Below are positions 48 to 44,700 of a stretch of DNA of 64,000 nt, in pieces (within the stretch, counting starts at the first letter, position 1; the number at the start of each line of letters is the position of its first letter). Origin of the DNA: Asterias amurensis. Lineage: Eukaryota > Echinodermata > Asteroidea > Forcipulatida > Asteriidae. A program made the position numbers and the translations under genes. The DNA lies in contig NC_092666.1 in assembly GCF_032118995.1 (NCBI RefSeq), forward strand, positions 11,358,501 through 11,422,500. The letters run 5' to 3'. The notes beneath the pieces were generated by a model. It was not told the DNA's origin and ran no database searches. It saw only the letters and a list, made by a program, of their open reading frames with translations.

Positions 48-18242
<18,195 letters not shown>

Positions 18243-29668: not shown

Positions 29669-32600
29669 GTAAGTTTGATAATTTTAATGGATGAAATTGC
29701 GAACTAACCCAAAATATTTGTTTCTGCCCAGTTTCCGGACATACCGCCACATCACTTTTTGAAGCCAAACTGTGACATGCGTCGTGTGTGTTGTACCGGG
29801 TACCGGACACTTCGGCACCTTGCAAACTCGGCACCAGCAAACTCGGCACTCACTCGGCACCAAGAATGTCGGCACCAAACAAACTCGGCACCGGCCTTTT
29901 TTGGTCCAACAAACTCGGCACCAAACAAACTCGGCACCGGCCTATTTTGGTCCACCAAGCCAAACTCGGCACCAACAGCAAATACCACCCGAAGAGTGGT
30001 ATTAACACCATAAAAACTGGTTTGAATTTAGTTAACATAATAAGTAGTTATGCTTGCTTAAATGACTATAACCGCTTCCGAAATTTCGAAAAATTGGCAT
30101 CGGAGATTTTTTTTCCCCGGAAACTTTACGTCCGCACGTTCACAGTTTTTGTTTTGTTTTTCGTTTTTTTTAATGTTGGTGAAAGTGCATCGCTATTTGT
30201 TGATGTATTGGGCTTTGAAAATGTTAGCGTTTGGTTGACAATGACTTTTTGATTTTGAAGAGAGTGTGATCTGGGAGCGTGCGGCCGTCGGCCGTGGGGG
30301 ACTTTTGCCCCACCACGACGGCGGCAGCGACAGTCCAGCGTGCCCGGTGTTTAGTGGAATCGTGCGTAATAAAACACAGTGTATCGTTGCGGTACCCGCT
30401 GCCAAAACATAGGATTCGAACTGCCTCTAGCTGCCGGGCAACCTCGGTAGTCTAGTTGGTAAGACACTGCTCTAGAATTGCAAGGGTCGTGGGTTCGAAT
30501 CCCACACGAGTAATATGCCTGTGATATTTTTTCACAGGACTCGGGAAAGTACTGAGTATACAGTGCTAACACACATCGGTGTATGGGTAAAAATCAAAAT
30601 TAATATTCTTTATCCCCGATGCAAATTTAACATCTATTATATCGTTGCGGTACCCGCTGCCAAAACATAGGATTCGAACTGCCTCTAGCTGCCGGGCAAC
30701 CTCGGTAGTCTAGTTGGTAAGACACTGCTCTAGAATTGCAAGGGTCGTGGGTTCGAATCCCACACGAGTAATATGCCTGTGATATTTTTTCACAGGACTC
30801 GGGAAAGTACTGAGTATACAGTGCTAACACACATTGGTGTATGGGTAAAAACCAAAATTAATATTCTTTATCCCCGATGCAAATTTAACATCTATTATAT
30901 CGTTGCGGTACCCGCTGCCAAAACATAGGATTCGAACTGCCTCTAGCTGCCGGGCAACCTCGGTAGTCTAGTTGGTAAGACACTGCTCTAGAATTGCAAG
31001 GGTCGTGGGTTCGAATCCCACACGAGTAATATGCCTGTGATATTTTTTCACAGGACTCGGGAAAGTACTGAGTATACAGTGCTAACACACATCGGTGTAT
31101 GGGTAAAAACCAAAATTAATATTCTTTATCCCCGATGCAAATTTAACATCTATTATATCGTTGCGGTACCCGCTGCCAAAACATAGGATTCGAACTGCCT
31201 CTAGCTGCCGGGCAACCTCGGTAGTCTAGTTGGTAAGACACTGCTCTAGAATTGCAAGGGTCGTGGGTTCGAATCCCACACGAGTAATATGCCTGTGATA
31301 TTTTTTCACAGGACTCGGGAAAGTACTGAGTATACAGTGCTAACACACATCGGTGTATGGGTAAAAACCAAAATTAATATTCTTTATCCCCGATGCAAAT
31401 TTAACATCTATTATATCGTTGCGGTACCCGCTGCCAAAACATAGGATTCGAACTGCCTCTAGCTGCCGGGCAACCTCGGTAGTCTAGTTGGTAAGACACT
31501 GCTCTAGAATTGCAAGGGTCGTGGGTTCGAATCCCACACGAGTAATATGCCTGTGATATTTTTTCACAGGACTCGGGAAAGTACTGAGTATACAGTGCTA
31601 ACACACATCGGTGTATGGGTAAAAACCAAAATTAATATTCTTTATCCCCGATGCAAATTTAACATCTATTATATCGTTGCGGTACCCGCTGCCAAAACAT
31701 AGGATTCGAACTGCCTCTAGCTGCCGGGCAACCTCGGTAGTCTAGTTGGTAAGACACTGCTCTAGAATTGCAAGGGTCGTGGGTTCGAATCCCACACGAG
31801 TAATATGCCTGTGATATTTTTTCACAGGACTCGGGAAAGTACTGAGTATACAGTGCTAACACACATCGGTGTATGGGTAAAAACCAAAATTAATATTCTT
31901 TATCCCCGATGCAAATTTAACATCTATTATATCGTTGCGGTACCCGCTGCCAAAACATAGGATTCGAACTGCCTCTAGCTGCCGGGCAACCTCGGTAGTC
32001 TAGTTGGTAAGACACTGCTCTAGAATTGCAAGGGTCGTGGGTTCGAATCCCACACGAGTAATATGCCTGTGATATTTTTTCACAGGACTCGGGAAAGTAC
32101 TGAGTATACAGTGCTAACACACATCGGTGTATGGGTAAAAACCAAAATTAATATTCTTTATCCCCGATGCAAATTTAACATCTATTATATCGTTGCGGTA
32201 CCCGCTGCCAAAACATAGGATTCGAACTGCCTCTAGCTGCCGGGCAACCTCGGTAGTCTAGTTGGTAAGACACTGCTCTAGAATTGCAAGGGTCGTGGGT
32301 TCGAATCCCACCCGAGTAATATGCCTGTGATATTTTTTCACAGGACTCGGGGAAAGTACTGAGTATACAGTGCTAACACACATCGGTGTATGGGTAAAAA
32401 CCAAAATTAATATTCTTTATCCCCGATGCAAATTTAACATCTATTATATCGTTGCGGTACCCGCTGCCAAAACATAGGATTCGAACTGCCTCTAGCTGCC
32501 GGGCAACCTCGGTAGTCTAGTTGGTAAGACACTGCTCTAGAATTGCAAGGGTCGTGGGTTCGAATCCCACCCGAGTAATATGCCTGTGATATTTTTTTCA

Positions 32601-35600
32601 CAGGACTCGGGAAAGTACTGAGTATACAGTGCTAACACACATCGGTGTATGGGTAAAAACCAAAATTAATATTCTTTATCCCCGATGCAAATTTAACATC
32701 TATTATATCGTTGCGGTACCCGCTGCCAAAACATAGGATTCGAACTGCCTCTAGCTGCCGGGCAACCTCGGTAGTCTAGTTGGTAAGACACTGCTCTAGA
32801 ATTGCAAGGGTCGTGGGTTCGAATCCCACCCGAGTAATATGCCTGTGATATTTTTTTCACAGGACTCGGGAAAGTACTGAGTATACAGTGCTAACACACA
32901 TCGGTGTATGGGTAAAAACCAAAATTAATATTCTTTATCCCCGATGCAAATTTAACATCTATTATATCGTTGCGGTACCCGCTGCCAAAACATAGGATTC
33001 GAACTGCCTCTAGCTGCCGGGCAACCTCGGTAAGACACTGCTCTAGAATTGCAAGGGTCGTGGGTTCGAATCTCACCCGAGTAATATGCCTGTGATATTT
33101 TTTCACAGGACTCGGGAAAGTACTGAGTATACAGTGCTTACACACATCGGTGTATGGGTAAAAACCAAAATTAATATTCTTTATCCCCGATGCAAATTTA
33201 ACATCTATTAGAAATTATTTACACGTGCTTTATTTTGAACTAGTGTTTTATTGGATCAAAGTTTCGTGTAAATGTTCCCAAAAAAATACTTGGACATCGA
33301 AATTACGTATTCGACTCAAAAACGTCTTCAAAAGTTTACACAAAATAAATTTAATTATTTTGATACAGATTTTTGAAAAGGGCGACCTCACCATGACAGT
33401 GAAAAATACATATTAATTATTAGGTATGTATCGTCGGTACGACACGAAACCGATACACACGACGCGTCGGGGATCGGGATTTATTTCAATTTCGAACTGG
33501 GTGCCGAGTTTTTAACCGTGGGCAGATTGAGCGTTTTTCAACCAGGTGCCGAGTTTGTAGTTGTGAATGTGCCGAGTTTGTGGGTGCCGAGTTTGCAAGG
33601 TGCCGAGGTTGTGGGTGCCGAGTTTGAGAGGTGCCGAGTTTGCTGGTGCCGAGTTTGCAAGGTGCCGAAGTGTCCGGTATTCGTTGTACCAGTACCTGCC
33701 ATTTTCTGAAATGTATTACTGAAATTGTCCGAATCATCCTGACACCACTTTTTTGCACACGTTATGAAATAAATTAGTATCTTTTTATTTAAATTTACTA
33801 TAAAAAAATCCCTTTTTAATTTTAATTTTAAATTAAACGAATTAATTAATTATTTTCCCCGTTATAATATATAATTATAATTGGGGTGGGGCCGGGGTTA
33901 CTCCTAGAACTATTTCGGTTTTGTCCGCTATTGGTCCTGTAATGGGAGACGATAGCGGACGAAACCGAAATGCGTAGTTCTAGGAGTAGGGAGGAGTAGG
34001 AAAAGTAGATACTTGTTCCGAATTCAAAACTAATCTCAAAACATATCTGTTTGGGAAACAATAGCCTTCAAACTTTTGGTTGTCTTGTGTCATTGTGTAT
34101 TAGCAGGGTTCTTTTTTTTTGGCACCAGGAGTGTCATCATTGACAGACATGGTGCACTAGAAATGTTCAGCGTTATTATCATTATTATTAATAATGAATA
34201 GGGTAGATGGCCTTAGCTTTCGATCCAGACCAGACCCTCTTCAGAGGCTTAAATCAAGTACAAACAAATACATATCCATTTATAGAAAAAGAGAGGGGAA
34301 AGGGATTAAGGGAAGGATCCAGAAAGAAGCGGGAAAATAACAGCCAATCAAAGTTTCTATTTCAGAAACAATTGGTGGCTATGAACCAATACTATATAGG
34401 AGTAAAGTGGCGAGGATAAAGGATGTTTAGTATGAAAGGATGGATTACTGGACCATAAAAGTGGTAAATGCATTGTTCGATAACAATGCAGGGAAACATG
34501 AAAGGGTAGAATTAGAGAGCAAGTTGTATCATGATGCAACTAACAATGGTTAATTATTATTATTATATAATAGTTCACACGCCCAAATGTTTATATTTTT
34601 TACAGGTATGTCAACAGAGATGACTGCAACAAACACAGCAGTCACATCCAGGCAAAATGAGGTCTTTGAAAAAGAGAAACAACGACAGTTATCGCTCATC
34701 AAAAGAATCGAGAAGATTGAGGTGGAACATGTTGATCCTAACGAGCCGTGTAAATTCATGATGAATAAGTATCTATCGACACCGTACCATGCTGCTATGC
34801 GTAAGAACAACTCTTTGAAGTTATTTATATTTATATTTATATTTTATTGACCAAACCAACAGCGGATGAGCCGCCAATTACAGGAAAGGATAAAAAACAA
34901 TTAGAAATATTCATGTAGCCTATATAAAAACAATCTGATATATGTACAAAGTAAACAATTAAAATAGAATCATCTTAGGAAAGAAGATTAAATCATACAT
35001 TGAGGATTAAATAAAATAAAATAGGGAACAGAAACAGACCACCAAGAACGACTGTGAAAATATATTTGAAATAATTTTTAAAAGCAAAAGCCTACATTAA
35101 ATTATAAAATAGAATAAACAATAAGAGACAAGGGAAATAATTTTTTTTTTTTAAATTCTATTAGATAATAATATTAGTATAATCGTGCAGGGCCGAATTT
35201 GAGGAAAAATCCACAGGATTACAGGGCTACTTGTAGCTAAGACAATTTACTGGACAAGAGAATTCATTACGAGACCAGAAGAATAAAAATGATAAGAACA
35301 CTATACACATCGGTGTCCGGGCAAGAACAAAATTGTACTATCTACACCATATTTTGGGTCGTTGTTGGACCTTGTTGAACTTGTTATATCACTAAGTGAA
35401 GATGGGTAAAGTACTTCAATTATGTCAATATTCAACAGAATTGACAAATATTTATACTTCAGTTTAAAGACATTGGACACTATTGGTAATTGTCAAAGAC
35501 CGGTCTTCCCACTTGCTGTATCTCATCATATGCATAAAACAACATACCTGTGAAAATTTGAGCTCAATTGGTCATTGAAGATGCGAGATAATAATGAAAG

Positions 35601-38600: not shown

Positions 38601-41031
38601 TGTAATTTTGCCCTTGATTAATAACATTTCCCTGGTATTGCCTTTAAAGATGTCATTCATGATATAGATAAAAATCTATTGATATATTTTGTATTGCGTG
38701 CTGGAAACTTTCTTTACACTTGTTTAACAAAGTAATTAGACTGATATTATTCTTTCTCAAACTAAACTGAAAATGAAGTTAACCTTTTGTACTATCTCAT
38801 TATTATTGCAGATACATGGCATTGAAGACTATCTCAAACCAAGGGTAAGTTTGTAATTTGCTTTTATGATCAGATGATATAGAATGAAATTTACAGAGTT
38901 TGAGTCCAGTGCTCTTAGCTGCTCAGTTGCAACACACCATCTTTCTTTCATCATTCTTCGAACAAATTCACAGGCATATTACTCAGTGGGATTTGAACCC
39001 ACGACCTTTGCAATTCTAGAGCAGATGTCTTACTAACTAGGAGGCAGGAGGCAGCTCAAATCCTGTATTTTAGTAGGGGGTATCGCATTGACTGAATAGA
39101 TTTGCACCTGTTAATTTGCATATCCCTTGTACTTTATCTGTATGTTTAATAACTTGTTCATTTTTTTTTAAAACCTCACAGAATAAGCTGCTGAGATTCC
39201 AAGGTGTTGCTTTGCCATCAGAATTCCAGGTGAGTACTCGATGATAAAATTCTTACATTAAAATGTTGTGTGCACAGTGGTTTAAAACCCTATGTGACCC
39301 AGACATCGACACGTTTTAGAACAATAATCGGTCAAAATATCTCAAGCATGTGTCAATCCCAAAGATCAACAAACAATTTCTGCCAGGGGAAAAAAAAAAG
39401 AGAAAAAAAAAAAAAGTCTCAATGTCATCTTTTGGCAGATAAAACTTGGTTGTCCTTCAAAATAAAACACAATTTACCAATGCATGTCATGATTCACGAA
39501 TTTTATGACATTTAAAGAGGAATTGCGCCCTCTTGTGGCTGTTTTATGAAGCGCTGCATCTCATTGTCAACGAAGGTTGCTACATTTTCTGTGTGTTAAC
39601 ACATGGTGTAGTATGGTGTAAACAATGTTTTGGGTTAAAAACAGCGTTTTGAAAGTTAAATTTTTGGGAGAAAAGGCGATCTTGTGGGATTTTTGCGCTA
39701 TTTTATTTTCAAACCTAAGTAGTCACTCTATTATTTTATGGAAAAAATACAAGAAATATTGTGGCCGTTGGTGGCTGGTTGAGAAAATGTCCAAGGTTTC
39801 GATTTTAGTCTGTCCTACTGTACACATTTTCTGTCTTCTGTATAGTATTTTGTGTTGTTTGTCTGTAAATAGGTTAATGCACAAAAGCCTCTGCTTCACC
39901 CTAACCTAATTCTTGTCCCACTTTAAGCTTTAAAATATATTTTACTATCTAAATCATTGTGAACTTTCATCTTTTGCTATCCTAAGTTACAATGTATTAC
40001 TGTGAACTACTCATAATTTGAATCTAATTGACAAAGTTGGTTAAAATGTGTAAAATATGTAGAGCAGTAATAAAAACAAATGTGTAAATGAAATGAAATA
40101 AACCTAATAGTTTGGCATCACCACTAACTTTTGACTCTTTTCTTCTACATTTTGGATCCAAATAATCTCTACTTGGCTGTAATAGTTTACTTTTATGAAA
40201 ATAAAAACAAATGAGATAAAAAGCATTTTATGCTATTTACGGTCCACCTTACTGCATTGAACAATTTGATTAAAGAACATATGATACCCAACCCTTCAGC
40301 AACAAAATTAACAATACACTTTTGCACTCAATTCTATCTTATCTCGAGTCTATCTAATAAAGATAAATGAAAGGCAGAAGCTCCATTAGTTGATGCATAC
40401 AGGTAAGAGTAACATGTTTTTTTGATTTGATCAATCATTTTTGCTTATTTCAACAGGTGCATCACACAGCATGGAGTATTATCCAAGACCGAGCTAAGAA
40501 ACCAGTAAGTTTTTAACAGGTTGGATCTGTGGCATTTTCTCATCAGTACTAGTACTCAATACTTTTTGATAGTACTCAGACTTAGTACTTGTCATTAAGT
40601 TCTACTCAAGTGCCCTTTATATTGTACTTTAACTCAGCTAGCAAAATTCTCAAACTCAAAGTCTTGAACTCGAAACTGAACTAAGGCCCTTTTCGAAACC
40701 ACGGCTTTGGCTTTGGATTCGGCTTCAGGGTCCGTTCTCTCCTCTGAAGACCTGAGCGCGTATGCAAAGCATGCGCCAATTGTCAAAACAACCGCGGGGC
40801 CAAGCTAGCCTGAGTCAAATCCAAACCCAAAGCCGTGGTTTTGAAAAGGGCCTGTTATGGAAAAGTCCTATTTGATGTAATCATAAACAGCGCCCTCTGG
40901 AGGCAGGTATAAACACAGTTACAGTAACAAGTTGGTGGTTTCCTTTTTCATACCAGATCTTGTTGGACTTGGCACCTAGCATAAAATCCAGCCAGCAAAC
41001 AGACCAAACACAACAGGAGTCTACATCTTGA
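29620..41031 (+). CDS. MRPL39: MRPL39, mitochondrial ribosomal protein mL39 (complete, 10 exons)
   Basis: Component of the mitochondrial large ribosomal subunit, related to the N-terminal (TGS and second) domains of threonyl-tRNA synthetase. Exons: 29620-29668, 34606-34800, 36097-36236, 36921-37020, 37682-37853, 38298-38436, 38812-38844, 39182-39229, 40457-40504, 40957-41031, total 999 bp, 332 aa (human about 338). Family blocks: KEKQRQLSLIKRIEKIEVEH, NKYLSTPYHAAMH, WRSCSHMMGAI, CFAYDV, GEFVDISEGP, RFQGVALP. The first exon is inferred: MKWLKHTLSVRRFACR plus one base (T) joins GT at 34,606 in frame and gives a basic, amphipathic mitochondrial presequence. An alternative start is the ATG at 34,608, which would lack a presequence. 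Intron 1 (4.9 kb) houses the SINE-array transposon. No obvious AATAAA was found just downstream. Confidence 0.93.
29798..33682. mobile_element. 3.9 kb non-autonomous DNA transposon carrying a SINE array
   Basis: The octamer GTTGTACC stands immediately outside both ends (29,790-29,797 and 33,683-33,690). 29,801-29,849 and 33,631-33,679 are perfect 49-bp inverted repeats. Just inside each end is a cluster of AAACTCGGCACC (left) or its reverse GGTGCCGAGTTT (right), about 8-10 copies per side. Such subterminal iterations are usual transposase-binding regions in hAT elements, and the 8-bp duplication fits hAT or P-type. No transposase is encoded. Unique inner flanks are 29,990-30,378 and 33,212-33,490, and between them lies the array. 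The whole element is in MRPL39 intron 1. Confidence 0.9.
30379..33211 (+). repeat. Tandem array of 11 tRNA-derived SINE units (258-259 bp)
   Basis: Unit starts (CGTTGCGGTACCCGCTGCC): 30,385, 30,643, 30,901, 31,159, 31,417, 31,675, 31,933, 32,191, 32,450, 32,709 and 32,968. Units differ at only a few bases; the last lacks about 12 bp of the A-box region. Each has a tRNA-like domain: D arm GTCT-AGTTGGTA-AGAC, weak anticodon arm, T arm GTGGG-TTCGAAT-CCCAC and a CTCGG/C(A/C)CGAG acceptor pair. Units 8-10 keep the fully paired CCCGAG. A T6-T7 run in CCTGTGATATTTTTTCACAG follows, fit to stop RNA polymerase III. The same SINE occurs singly at 1.6, 13.4, 17.1-17.4 and 39.0 kb. The 67-residue minus-strand frame in each unit follows from the repeat. 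Confidence 0.95.
33899..33987. repeat. Compact perfect-stem hairpin in MRPL39 intron 1
   Basis: ACTCCTAGAACTA, TTTCGGTTTTGTCCGCTAT and their inverted forms (ATAGCGGACGAAACCGAAA, TAGTTCTAGGAGT) face each other across about 20 bp. It is about 90 bp and outside the 3.9 kb transposon. Probably a tiny MITE. Confidence 0.8.
34015..34205 (+). mobile_element. 3' end of a CR1/L2-type LINE
   Basis: The frame reads EFKTNLKTYLFGKQ-stop, the usual C-terminal signature of these reverse transcriptases. A short 3' region ending in TTATTATCATTATTATTAAT follows. It is 5'-truncated to under 200 bp. Confidence 0.75.
34207..34545. repeat. Interspersed repeat with a second fragment at 51.84-51.96 kb
   Basis: CTTAGCTTTCGATCCAGACC and ACATATCCAT recur as TTAGCTTTCAATCCAAACC and ACATATCCAT near 51,860-51,920. 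The family is unknown to me. It lies just before the second MRPL39 exon. Confidence 0.5.
34801..35460 (+). other. MRPL39 intron sequence without recognisable features
   Basis: AT-rich, with T/A-rich blocks and a small SINE-tail-like piece at about 35,305-35,340 (CTATACACATCGGTGTCCGG). No exon-like segment is seen. Confidence 0.5.
35463..35777. mobile_element. TTAA MITE, subfamily A
   Basis: TTTAAAGACATTGGACACTA at the left and TAGTGTCCACTGCCTTTAAA at the right, with the central GACCTCAAATT/GAGGTCTCG arms. About 70 bp are missing from the right half. It lies in an MRPL39 intron. Confidence 0.8.
36510..36870 (-). mobile_element. SINE with a tRNA-Leu/Ser-type head
   Basis: On the minus strand: GTGTCATGGCCGAGTGGTTA (A box and D arm), a long variable arm (TCTGGTGCTAAGTCACCAGA), B box GGGTTCGAACCC, then a body with CCTTGAGCAAGATACTTTAC and TAATTACTTTTCTTC. 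The long variable arm indicates a class II tRNA source. It ends about 50 bp before the MRPL39 exon at 36,921. Confidence 0.8.
37195..37480 (-). mobile_element. LINE reverse-transcriptase C-terminal fragment
   Basis: The minus-strand frame contains WFGHIVRMKNNRLSK and GRPRKRWENDT, the common C-terminal block of several non-LTR retrotransposon proteins. It is truncated on both sides and lies in an MRPL39 intron. The repeat of AATC at 37,146-37,160 may be its tail region. Confidence 0.75.
37967..38179. mobile_element. MITE with TATAGACGATGTGAC ends, second copy
   Basis: Matches 20,981-21,195 along its length, with GCGCGCATACCGCCGGGCAA and TTTGCCCGGCGAAACATG. It ends about 120 bp before the exon at 38,298. 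Confidence 0.85.
38950..39110 (-). mobile_element. Single array-type SINE, reverse
   Basis: CAGGCATATTACTCAGTGGG, ATTTGAACCCACGACC and TTGCAATTCTAGAGCAG are the minus strand of the tRNA-like domain of the array unit, including a good B box. The 3' tail is lost. Confidence 0.75.
39230..40456 (+). other. Long MRPL39 intron with no recognised element
   Basis: 1.2 kb of AT-rich sequence. I see only A-rich and simple tracts (39,390-39,420), no splice-flanked frame and no known repeat. Confidence 0.5.
40684..40854. mobile_element. Palindromic MITE, AAGGCCCTTTTCGAAACCAC ends
   Basis: The left end (AAGGCCCTTTTCGAAACCAC) and right end (GTGGTTTTGAAAAGGGCCT) are inverted; the next 8 bp (GGCTTTGG/CCAAAGCC) also pair. 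About 170 bp, in the last MRPL39 intron. Only one copy is seen in this window. Confidence 0.85.
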
Positions 41032-41729: not shown

Positions 41730-44700
41730 TAACGGCACTGAACACGTTTGGTAATTGTCAAAGACCAGTATTCTCACTTAGAATAACCCAACATATTATG
41801 CATAAAATAACAAACCTTAAAAAATTTGGGCTCAATTGGTGATCGACGTAAAAAGAAAATATTGAAAGAAAGACAAGCGTTTTAATATTTGAGTAAGAAC
41901 TTACCTCTTCCTCAAAAACTATGTTACTTCGGGGGAGCCATTTCTCACAATGTTTTATACTATCAACAGACAACAGCTCTCCATATCATCAGCTCAATCA
42001 TTCGAACTTGCCTACATCACCAACCCTACTAAACAGCTTCGGTTGTTTGCAATCTACAGACCGCCCCCCTCCGCAAAGAACGGTCTGAATACACCACAGT
42101 TTTTGTCGGAGTTCAACGATTTTCTGGCTGAGATCTCACCCCTCTCCGGCAATCACCTGATACTAGGGGACTTCAATCTGCACCTCGATATCCCAAGTAA
42201 ACCTGAAGTTGCTCAGTTTCTCACACTGCTTGTCGACCATGACCTACAGCAACATGTCTATGGAGCCACCCACAAATATGGTCACACACTTGACCTTGTG
42301 ATATCGCGTCAAGCGGATACCCTCGTGCAAAACTGTAACAGTGTCAATAATCTCTACTCGGATCATCATGTTATTGTATGCATCATTGACCATGCCAAAC
42401 CTACTCGACAGTTGGTACAATCGAAGGTTAGGAACTACCGCACCCTCGACACTGATTCATTCACCAATGATCTTACCCGGTCTTTTCAGCTGTTTCCATA
42501 CGACAGTTGCCCCAGTGATCAACTTTTATTTTATGACAACGCTGTCCTCGGTGTTCTTGATGCTCACTGCCCCGTCAAGATAAAGACACGCAGGTTTAAA
42601 CAACAGCAACCTTGGTATACGAATGACATTCACCTCGCAAGACGCAACCGCAGACAACTTGAGAGAAAATGGCGTAAAACCAGACATCCTGATGACCACC
42701 ATGCGTATGTGAGTCAGATCAACTCACTTACCAAGCTCATACGTCATGAAAAGTCGAAGTACTTCAAGGCCCATCTTTCATCTGCTGACACAAAAGCGGT
42801 GTTTCAAACTATCAACTCACTGTTAAACAAAGGGGCTCCTCCCCTTCCATCTGGCCAACCCTTGAAAACATTGAGCAACCGGTTTGCAACTTTCTTCAAA
42901 GACAAAGTTGCCAAAATAAGATCTAACATCATGTGTTCACTCACCCACACCCCTGAACCCGTTTCACTCCAGCATGCTGATTGCCTAGTACAAGTACCTC
43001 AACTCTCTGACTTCCCCCTTGCCGGTGAGGACGAGGTCCTCAGACTCATTAGCAAAGCACCGAGCAAGTCATGCGACCTGGACCCTCTCCCGACATGGAT
43101 GTTGAAATTGAATACCGGGACTCTCCTCTCTGCTCTGGTTTCAATCGTCAATAGCTCGCTTGCCACAGGTTCCTTCCCATCGAGCCTCAAGGAAGCCATA
43201 GTATCTCCCATTCTAAAGAAGCCCGGGCTAGACGTGAACAATCTCAAGAACTATAGACCGGTTTCTAACTTGGCATTTATATCGAAACTGATTGAAAAGG
43301 TTGCTTTAACTCGTATCAATGATCATCTTTGTACTAATATGTTGTTTCAGAAGTTTCAGTCTGCTTACAGGTCTGGCCACAGCACTGAGACGGCATTGCT
43401 GAGAATCAAGAGTGACATAATGCGTGCTCTTGATGATCGGCAGGCTGTTTTCGTGGTGTTGCTGGATCTGTCGGCGGCGTTCGATACCATTGATTATGTT
43501 TCCCTCTTGGATAGATTATATAATGTTTTTGGGTTAACAGGTCATGTTCAACAGTGGTTTCATTCATACCTTGTTGGTCGCACTAATAGAGTTAAGGTTG
43601 CTAGTGAGCTATCTGACCCCCAGGTATTGGAGTTTGGTTTACCACAAGGTTCTGTGGTAGGGCCTCAGCTGTTTTCCCTATTTACTTATCCCCTGGCCAC
43701 AATTATTGAACGGTTTGAGCACATTCGCTATCACTTCTATGCTGACGATACCCAGCTGTACATTCAATTTAATCCCAACAACCCTGGTGAAATCAATCAA
43801 GCTCTTTCCACATTGTCGCAATGTATAATGGACATAAAACAATGGATGTTAAGCAACATGCTTCAACTCAACGATTCCAAAACTGATTTCTTTGTCTGTG
43901 CCAACAGTAGATGTCTCAGTTCGCTATCTGATGTTTCCCTCCAAGTAGACTCCGAAATCATCCAGCCTTCCACGAATATCAGAAATCTTGGAGTGGAGTT
44001 TGACCAGGCCATGCGGATGTCCGACCAAGTCACTTCTATTTGCCGATCCGTTAATTTCAGTCTACGTAACCTTTCTCGGATAAGAATGTACATTGATAAG
44101 CCCACATGCCATGCTGCTGTTAGAGCCCTTGTAACGTCTCGTCTCGATTATGCTAACTCTCTTCTCTATGGAATATCATCTGTTGACTGTCAACGCCTTC
44201 AACGGCTCCAAAATCGTGCAGCTAAACTGATCTACCAGGCCAAGAAATATGACAGAGTCACTCCCATTCTTCACGATCTTCACTGGCTGACAGTCTCCAA
44301 CCGTATCAACTTTAAAATACTTACCCTGGTCTTCAAATGTCTCAATACCGCCTCTGCGCCTTCATACCTAACGGATCTCATTCAGTTGTACAAACCTAAC
44401 AGATACCTCCGGTCATCTACTGACACCAGACTACTTGCCATCCCCAAAACACGCACCACTACTGGTGAAAAAAGCTTCCACGCTGCTGCCCCCAAACTCT
44501 GGAATGATTTACCTCACAGCATCCGCCACTCTAGCTCACTAGCAGCCTTCAAGAAATCTCTCAAAACCCACCTGTTCACCTGATTTGCTAGCTTTTATTT
44601 ATTCTTTGCTCTTTGTTTATTTTGTGTGTACAGCGCTGTGGTACTTTCCCCTGTTAGTTAGAGCGCTTTATAAATACCTTGTATTATTATTATTATTATT

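Follow-up and report, generated by a model that had tools for sequence, protein, structure and literature searches.

A tandem tRNA-headed retroelement nested in a DNA transposon of Asterias amurensis and its likeness to Penelope-like elements

Insertions of Penelope-like elements (PLEs) are described as direct pseudo-long terminal repeats (pLTRs) in tandem with an adjacent pLTR inverted head-to-head and a 31-bp tail on one of them; target duplications are of 8-10 bp or are missing, and pLTRs are able to act in trans, mobilising DNA to which they are unrelated (PMC3846280). For a PLE protein it is reported that reverse transcription starts at two adjacent internal sites, with the intervening sequence forming an optional tail of 30-40 bp, and that both strands are cut and extended at AT-rich targets (PMC11167929). 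Here we describe an array of 11 tandem units, each with a tRNA-like head, from the sea star Asterias amurensis. The array lies in a stretch of 64,000 nucleotides (contig NC_092666.1, positions 11,358,501 to 11,422,500), which is called the window throughout and to which positions without a contig refer, and it is nested in a non-autonomous DNA transposon. Its family resembles PLEs such as Penelope and Poseidon, as far as these are described in the sources cited, in having tandem or partial-tandem units, a head-to-head inverted unit, an optional one-end tail of 30-40 bp, 5′ truncation and short target duplications or none. It differs from them in that the units do not code for a protein, carry tRNA/RNA polymerase III (pol III) boxes, have no detected hammerhead and do not match the one candidate PLE start region that was compared.

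Metazoan (non-LTR) retrozymes are non-autonomous tandem rows of low-GC units of 150-450 bp, ranging from dimers to large multimers, and their target duplications, when present, exceed 4 bp (PMC7229834). While unit size, tandem rows and duplications are alike, the sea star units have a tRNA head and no type I hammerhead was found in them, so that by definition the unit is not a retrozyme. Short interspersed nuclear elements (SINEs) are generally defined by their partners among the long interspersed nuclear elements (LINEs). With tRNA-derived SINEs the family has in common a tRNA-like head with A and B boxes, target duplications and, among the exact B boxes listed for contig C1, a majority of single-B-box copies. 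It is set apart by two alternative 3′ ends, by multi-unit insertion, by an internal run of six T (T6) that precedes both 3′ ends, and by the lack of any noticed simple-repeat tail at the 20 array loci that were read. Tandem rows of SINE-related sequence are also known as satellites of squamates, which are portions of SINEs in the description available (PMC10702118), while the sea star rows consist of whole units with target duplications. Among the open literature that was searched, and within the parts of it that were accessible, no paper was recognised that reports Penelope-type ends for a tRNA SINE.

We consider it likely that the array represents a tRNA-headed, non-autonomous element of Penelope type which inserts as multimers and which, at this locus, is nested in a DNA transposon.

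The array and its family in the genome

The array extends from 30382 to 33210 on the plus strand and runs from unit position 1 of the first unit to position 258 of the last one. An original prediction, made from the window alone, had described 11 tandem, tRNA-derived units of 258-259 bp, and this is correct except for the last unit: seven units have 258 bp, three have 259 bp, and the last has been shortened to 246 bp by a 12-bp deletion. Units 3-7 are identical, C125A is confined to units 1-7, and an extra T (145+T) occurs in units 9-10. The tRNA origin was confirmed by Rfam, which reports a tRNA in units 1-10 (30441-32837; 40.5-48.1 bits at a gathering score of 29) and does not list unit 11 with its deletion. 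ARAGORN calls a tRNA in units 8-10 only; an example is the domain in unit 8 (32247-32319, plus strand), which reaches 48.1 bits with RF00005 and is called tRNA-Ser(AGA). The tRNA-like promoter boxes are found at unit positions 67 (box A) and 111 (box B), followed by the T6 run at 146-151. The unit has a GC content of 44.6%, and its RNA is predicted to fold strongly (z -5.9), an inverted B-box-like stretch pairing with the T arm of the tRNA. At the 3′ end of the array, unit positions 225-258 form a terminal extension of 34 bp (33177-33210, plus strand), which we liken to the optional tail of Penelope. The assembly appears to be based on Hi-C data and on PacBio HiFi sequencing of ~15-kb fragments (PMC10625585); the latter should span the 2.8-kb array.

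The genome (491,506,623 bp in 23 contigs) was searched for related copies. The complete unit gave 165 matches among the best 40 of 1,637 candidates scored. When at most one mismatch was permitted, the B box was found 3,670 times, unit positions 5-30 were found 1,460 times, the tail region (229-254) 3,473 times and the junction between successive units (258|1) 772 times, while control patterns were not found at all. All of the 100 exact B boxes that were listed are located on C1, where they form 83 clusters, 73 with one box and 10 with at least two. Below 30.3 Mb there are 85 of these boxes, 25 with an exact tail region downstream and 21 with exact unit positions 5-30 upstream. The first 100 junctions listed belong to 66 loci, of which 12 have more than one junction, with a maximum of 11. 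In these samples, each resting on the first 100 exact hits listed per pattern, copies with a single B box are in the majority and rows are less frequent.

Twenty other array loci were read in sequence. They were taken from the best-scoring unit matches, and young and long copies are over-represented among them. All 20 hold tandem arrays, in flanks which look unrelated, and the longest row (L051) has 17 tRNA-bearing units. Rfam calls a tRNA in all 17 of these and in 12 units of L046. Since young units are taken for tRNA genes, an automatic annotation is at risk of overestimating the number of tRNAs in the A. amurensis genome.

In 16 loci all units are direct, L039 being included although a short fragment 5′ of its row is inverted. 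Nine of these end at unit position 258, five at 224-226 and two elsewhere (L044, L055), and their 5′ starts spread over unit positions 37 to 245. The two flanks share at least 8 nt at 16 of the 20 loci, compared to 7 of 380 mismatched pairs (median 12 versus 5). The shared stretches usually have 8-14 bp and are AT-rich (0.71, versus 0.62 in the outer flanks). Preferred 3′ ends, variable 5′ ends and target duplications are the footprint of an RNA-templated insertion. Together with inversions that are exclusively head-to-head, they argue against dispersal of a satellite at the DNA level by extrachromosomal circles which reinsert. Tandem units of nearly constant period would agree with such a process, but we regard it as highly improbable.

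It was also considered whether RNAs ending at position 224 are joined end to end. Position 224 joined to position 1, with 0-8 bases in between (exact pattern), occurs at two places, compared to 772 for the 258|1 junction, and at both places there are 7-8 intervening bases which resemble shortened remnants of 225-258. As no clean 224|1 junction was found with this pattern, the possibility was rejected. The idea that C133T is private to the window array was also rejected, since the exact pattern matches 285 times in the genome, window array included. The pair A125+T133 has 14 matches, seven in the window array and seven single ones elsewhere.

Head-to-head loci and the Penelope pattern

Wherever a locus contains units in both orientations, a minus arm is followed by a plus arm. 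This holds for 8 of 8 loci on C1 below 30.3 Mb (exact pattern hits), for four further ones (C1:27609495, C2:7136269, C2:15063963 and C2:21254580) and for one at C1:31223095. In 11 of the 12 head-to-head loci that could be assessed, the 34-bp extension occurs on one end only, so that one outer end is at 258 and the other at 224-232. Four of the 11 were read in sequence (L042, L047, L052, L058), four are known from match coordinates (C1:13040580, C1:11833595, C4:23000607, C6:928164) and three from lists of exact pattern hits (C1:22387131, C1:26882135, C1:12205234); at C1 loci, absence of the tail was judged among the exact hits listed. The loci at C1:5913834, C1:11075344, C1:27609495, C1:31223095, C2:15063963 and C2:21254580 are outside this count.

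The two arms of a head-to-head locus also agree in their modal unit length: at six loci the units of each arm could be measured, and the agreement holds for all six. Two of these have the common length of 258 in both arms. The four informative ones, known from coordinates alone, have 257|257 (C1:11833595, C1:13040580, C2:21254580) and 259|259-260 (C4:23000607). An unusual unit length which is shared by both arms is hard to explain if the rows expanded only after they had inserted, and suggests that the template was a homogeneous multimer or a circle.

These loci also bear on a more conventional explanation, by which an ordinary tRNA SINE is moved by a LINE, with twin priming as the source of the inversions and later unequal exchange as the source of the arrays. 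This would account for the tRNA head with boxes A and B, for the target duplications and for the single B box in 73 of the 83 clusters on C1 among the exact B boxes listed. The window itself contains a non-LTR retrotransposon of this kind with an open frame of 877 aa (41950-44583), which codes for endonuclease and reverse transcriptase domains and has no stop. Twin priming by a LINE predicts, however, that the outer ends of the inverted arm vary, but they are found at 258 or at 224-232. Neither the locus-specific unit length common to both arms nor the 258|1 junction, which is crossed even in diverged copies (38957-39108), fits this explanation, and we consider it unlikely. The window LINE was rejected as helper, as 2 kb of its 3′ side have no similarity to the unit (scores of 20 and 21 at a shuffle mean of 21.8).

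The match in kind between the array insertions and the published PLE pattern is close, as it includes tandem units, head-to-head inversions, a 34-bp tail on one end and short target duplications. Since this insertion pattern is that of the published PLE footprint, a PLE is the likely helper. The unit thus appears to work like a PLE, while its membership in the group is not proven.

We propose the following course of events. The host is a non-autonomous DNA transposon of ~1.1 kb with 8-bp duplications, into which a multimer of the unrelated tRNA-headed retroelement, moving via RNA, would have inserted. Reverse transcription may start at unit position 258 or at about 224-226, 34 bp apart, and would proceed 5′-ward across several units, on a template that either is circular or comprises more than one unit. 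Copying would come to a stop at varying points, usually leaving target duplications of 8-14 bp. If both cut DNA ends were extended, the result would be a head-to-head insertion in which a single end carries the 34-bp extension. Rows would then already be multimeric upon insertion, and their template would probably be either a circle or the transcript of a donor array.

As the template may be a circle, this proposal overlaps with a retrozyme-like alternative, by which the RNA of the unit is circularised and copied round and round, the ribozyme having been replaced by another processing step. Unit size, GC content, tandem rows and duplications of more than 4 bp match the metazoan retrozymes as described (PMC7229834), and rows with a unit length of their own would fit a single circular template. 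The hammerhead that defines retrozymes was not found in the units, however, and this alternative seems to us possible but rather doubtful.

Candidate helpers, conflicting observations and implications

Canonical PLEs carry a GIY-YIG domain (PMC11167929), and open frames with this domain were thus taken as candidate PLEs. There are 64 GIY-YIG domain matches in the genome, six of them in open frames of 921-951 aa. Uninterrupted frames of 921 aa are found at C3:11684860-11687595, C10:12547565, C11:13499500, C4:23661516 and C2:18808919, and one of 951 aa at C11:22120702, which suggests that a Penelope family has recently been active. For A. amurensis, a total of 2,072 Penelope copies is given in the paper on the assembly (PMC10625585). 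When 83 aa read from the 921-aa frame of L079 were submitted to Pfam, no match was obtained. A unit with the pair A125+T133 is located ~960 bp downstream of a GIY-YIG domain (C6:15179695-15180939); we estimate that chance alone would yield about one neighbour of this kind.

Several observations weigh against a Penelope-type multimer. At C1:156629, the exact tail is found on neither end among the hits listed. PLEs can carry a hammerhead motif, but neither a hammerhead nor any other ribozyme was detected in the units by Rfam searches up to E-values of 5 and 10, and the motif CTGANGA is absent from both strands of a unit dimer. The unit has no similarity to the 301-base start region of the L079 frame (scores of 16 and 15 at a shuffle mean of 17.6), a comparison which covers one candidate start region of a frame that is a PLE by inference only. 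In the first 30.3 Mb of C1 there are three GIY-YIG hits, and none of the 100 exact tail-region matches listed is close to any of them.

Other such observations concern the template and the insertions. The T6 run at 146-151 would be expected to terminate pol III transcripts ahead of both start sites. A simple pol III product is thus a doubtful template, and a transcript that reads through the run could take its place. Seven of the 16 direct loci (set L039-L057) start at unit positions 203-225, near the proximal 3′ end site. We have no firm explanation for this cluster; on a circular template it would be the place where a copy comes round to its own start. Four of the 20 array loci are devoid of a target duplication, and the duplication of L057 is offset by 11 bases. 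The window array itself replaces a short stretch of the transposon and has no target duplication of its own. Finally, the block-wise distribution of C125A and of the extra T permits some local duplication after insertion, which we consider possible.

If the helper is indeed a PLE, SINE-like parasites would have come to exploit, in their evolution, a second class of reverse transcriptase. We tentatively suggest that a SINE family with a tRNA promoter uses Penelope-type machinery in place of a LINE and, with a multimer or a circle of RNA as template, inserts rows that are already complete (up to 17 units, 4.4 kb); a small satellite could then be founded by a single retroposition event. If true, this family would be a SINE driven by a PLE and, at the same time, the counterpart of a retrozyme without the ribozyme. 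The head-to-head loci would represent a natural record of the points at which a PLE-type enzyme starts to copy. They would also illustrate how a tandem row could form in a single step, a route from retroelement to satellite DNA for which this marine animal is an accessible system.

The surrounding DNA transposon

The array separates the two parts of a non-autonomous DNA transposon. The left part (29798-30381, plus strand) consists of a terminal inverted repeat (TIR; exact part 29801-29848, plus strand) and a subterminal cluster of AAACTCGGCACC, and the right part (33211-33682, plus strand) of subterminal repeats and the right TIR (exact part 33632-33679). The 8-bp duplications which had been predicted for both ends were verified: GTTGTACC occurs at 29790-29797 and at 33683-33690, is otherwise absent from both strands of the complete window, and has its equivalent in identical 8-mers that flank 14 of 22 other copies. 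The subterminal clusters described for each end were also found, with six copies of CTCGGCACC near the left end and seven of its complement GGTGCCGAG near the right end, and none elsewhere in the window. A perfect inverted repeat of 49 bp had been claimed; an exact repeat does exist but has 48 bp. Beyond it there are three terminal bases, two of which differ (left GGG and right GAA, read inward).

Searches with the left part gave 92 match pieces among the best 40 of 241 candidates scored, and the terminal 34-base pattern (at most 2 mismatches) identified 124 transposon ends in the genome, compared to none for the control. We inspected 27 other copies (L002-L008, L059-L078). The first 21 with both ends placed have 731-1362 bp (median 1116), and identical 8-bp flanks were found in 13 of these but in none of 420 mismatched pairings. 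L060, which was included later and also has identical flanks, raises the total to 14 of 22. The flanks look shifted by one base in L063 and L071, and there is one flank mismatch in L072. Not included in this count are L006, which is composite, and L064, L074, L076 and L078, where an end is missing or unclear. Since the ends recur with identical 8-bp flanks and the 124 ends stand against a control of zero, the outer element belongs to a genuine family of ~1.1-kb non-autonomous DNA transposons, which agrees with the non-autonomous element of the prediction.

Transposon ends of two kinds exist in the genome, GGGTACCGGA and GGGTACCGGT. No longer copy was recognised among the 100 ends listed out of the 124, and no transposase was found, although no protein search aimed at a transposase was made. 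By match coordinates, query positions 243 and 246 are apparently separated in one copy (G000:C6:15166382-15170096) by ~2.65 kb of additional DNA. With DNA transposons that generate 8-bp duplications (Merlin, hAT, P) the element shares the TIRs and the duplication, from which its GGG and GAA termini and the lack of a detected transposase set it apart. Merlin elements are defined, in the source consulted, by a conserved terminal 5′-GG in the TIRs and a duplication of 8-9 bp (PMC8101967). Although the 8-bp duplication and the left GGG fit, the right GAA does not, and an assignment to Merlin was rejected. The 8-bp duplication which, together with a family transposase, would mark a hAT or P element is present in 14 of 22 copies.

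Five copies that are devoid of the array (L002, L003, L005, L060, L069) have 16-17 bp, close to CACGACAGTCTGTAACA, at the site of the array. According to the original prediction, a SINE had inserted into the transposon and expanded there, and the transposon then spread the array as a mobile satellite seed. The array does lie inside the transposon, and its block-wise variants at unit positions 125 and 145 resemble some local duplication. However, no unit was found inside any of the 27 other copies, and the unit matches at those loci are confined to old fragments in L069 and L074, located outside the transposon. The left junction between transposon and array, searched with at most 2 mismatches, occurs once in 491 Mb. 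Many array loci, including all 20 that were read, are in surroundings unrelated to the transposon. As no other copy has a unit and the junction is unique, the transposon does not appear to have spread a satellite seed, and an array which grew in the transposon and travels with it is improbable. The array is a mobile element in its own right which lies nested in the transposon, and what moves is the retroelement family of the array itself. Nesting also occurs in reverse: at L069:1352-2766, a transposon copy with the 8-bp duplication CTCTGTGG is located between two divergent old fragments of the retroelement.

The window contains further, older copies of the retroelement. A single copy at 1566-1786 (plus strand; nhmmer 157 bits, supported by flanks and alignment) ends at unit position 225 and has AGCATATGG on both sides, and a copy at 13341-13488 (minus strand) ends at the distal site (unit 256-258). 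The copy at 17099-17428 is head-to-head, with a minus arm at 17099-17239 and a plus arm at 17239-17428, and the one at 38957-39108 (minus strand) still spans the 258|1 junction. As these diverged copies display both 3′ ends, the head-to-head form and the unit junction, this behaviour of the family is old. The sequence just to the right of the transposon (33890-34000) forms an inverted repeat that is long but imperfect (CCTAGAACTA...TAGTTCTAGG) and is possibly another small element.

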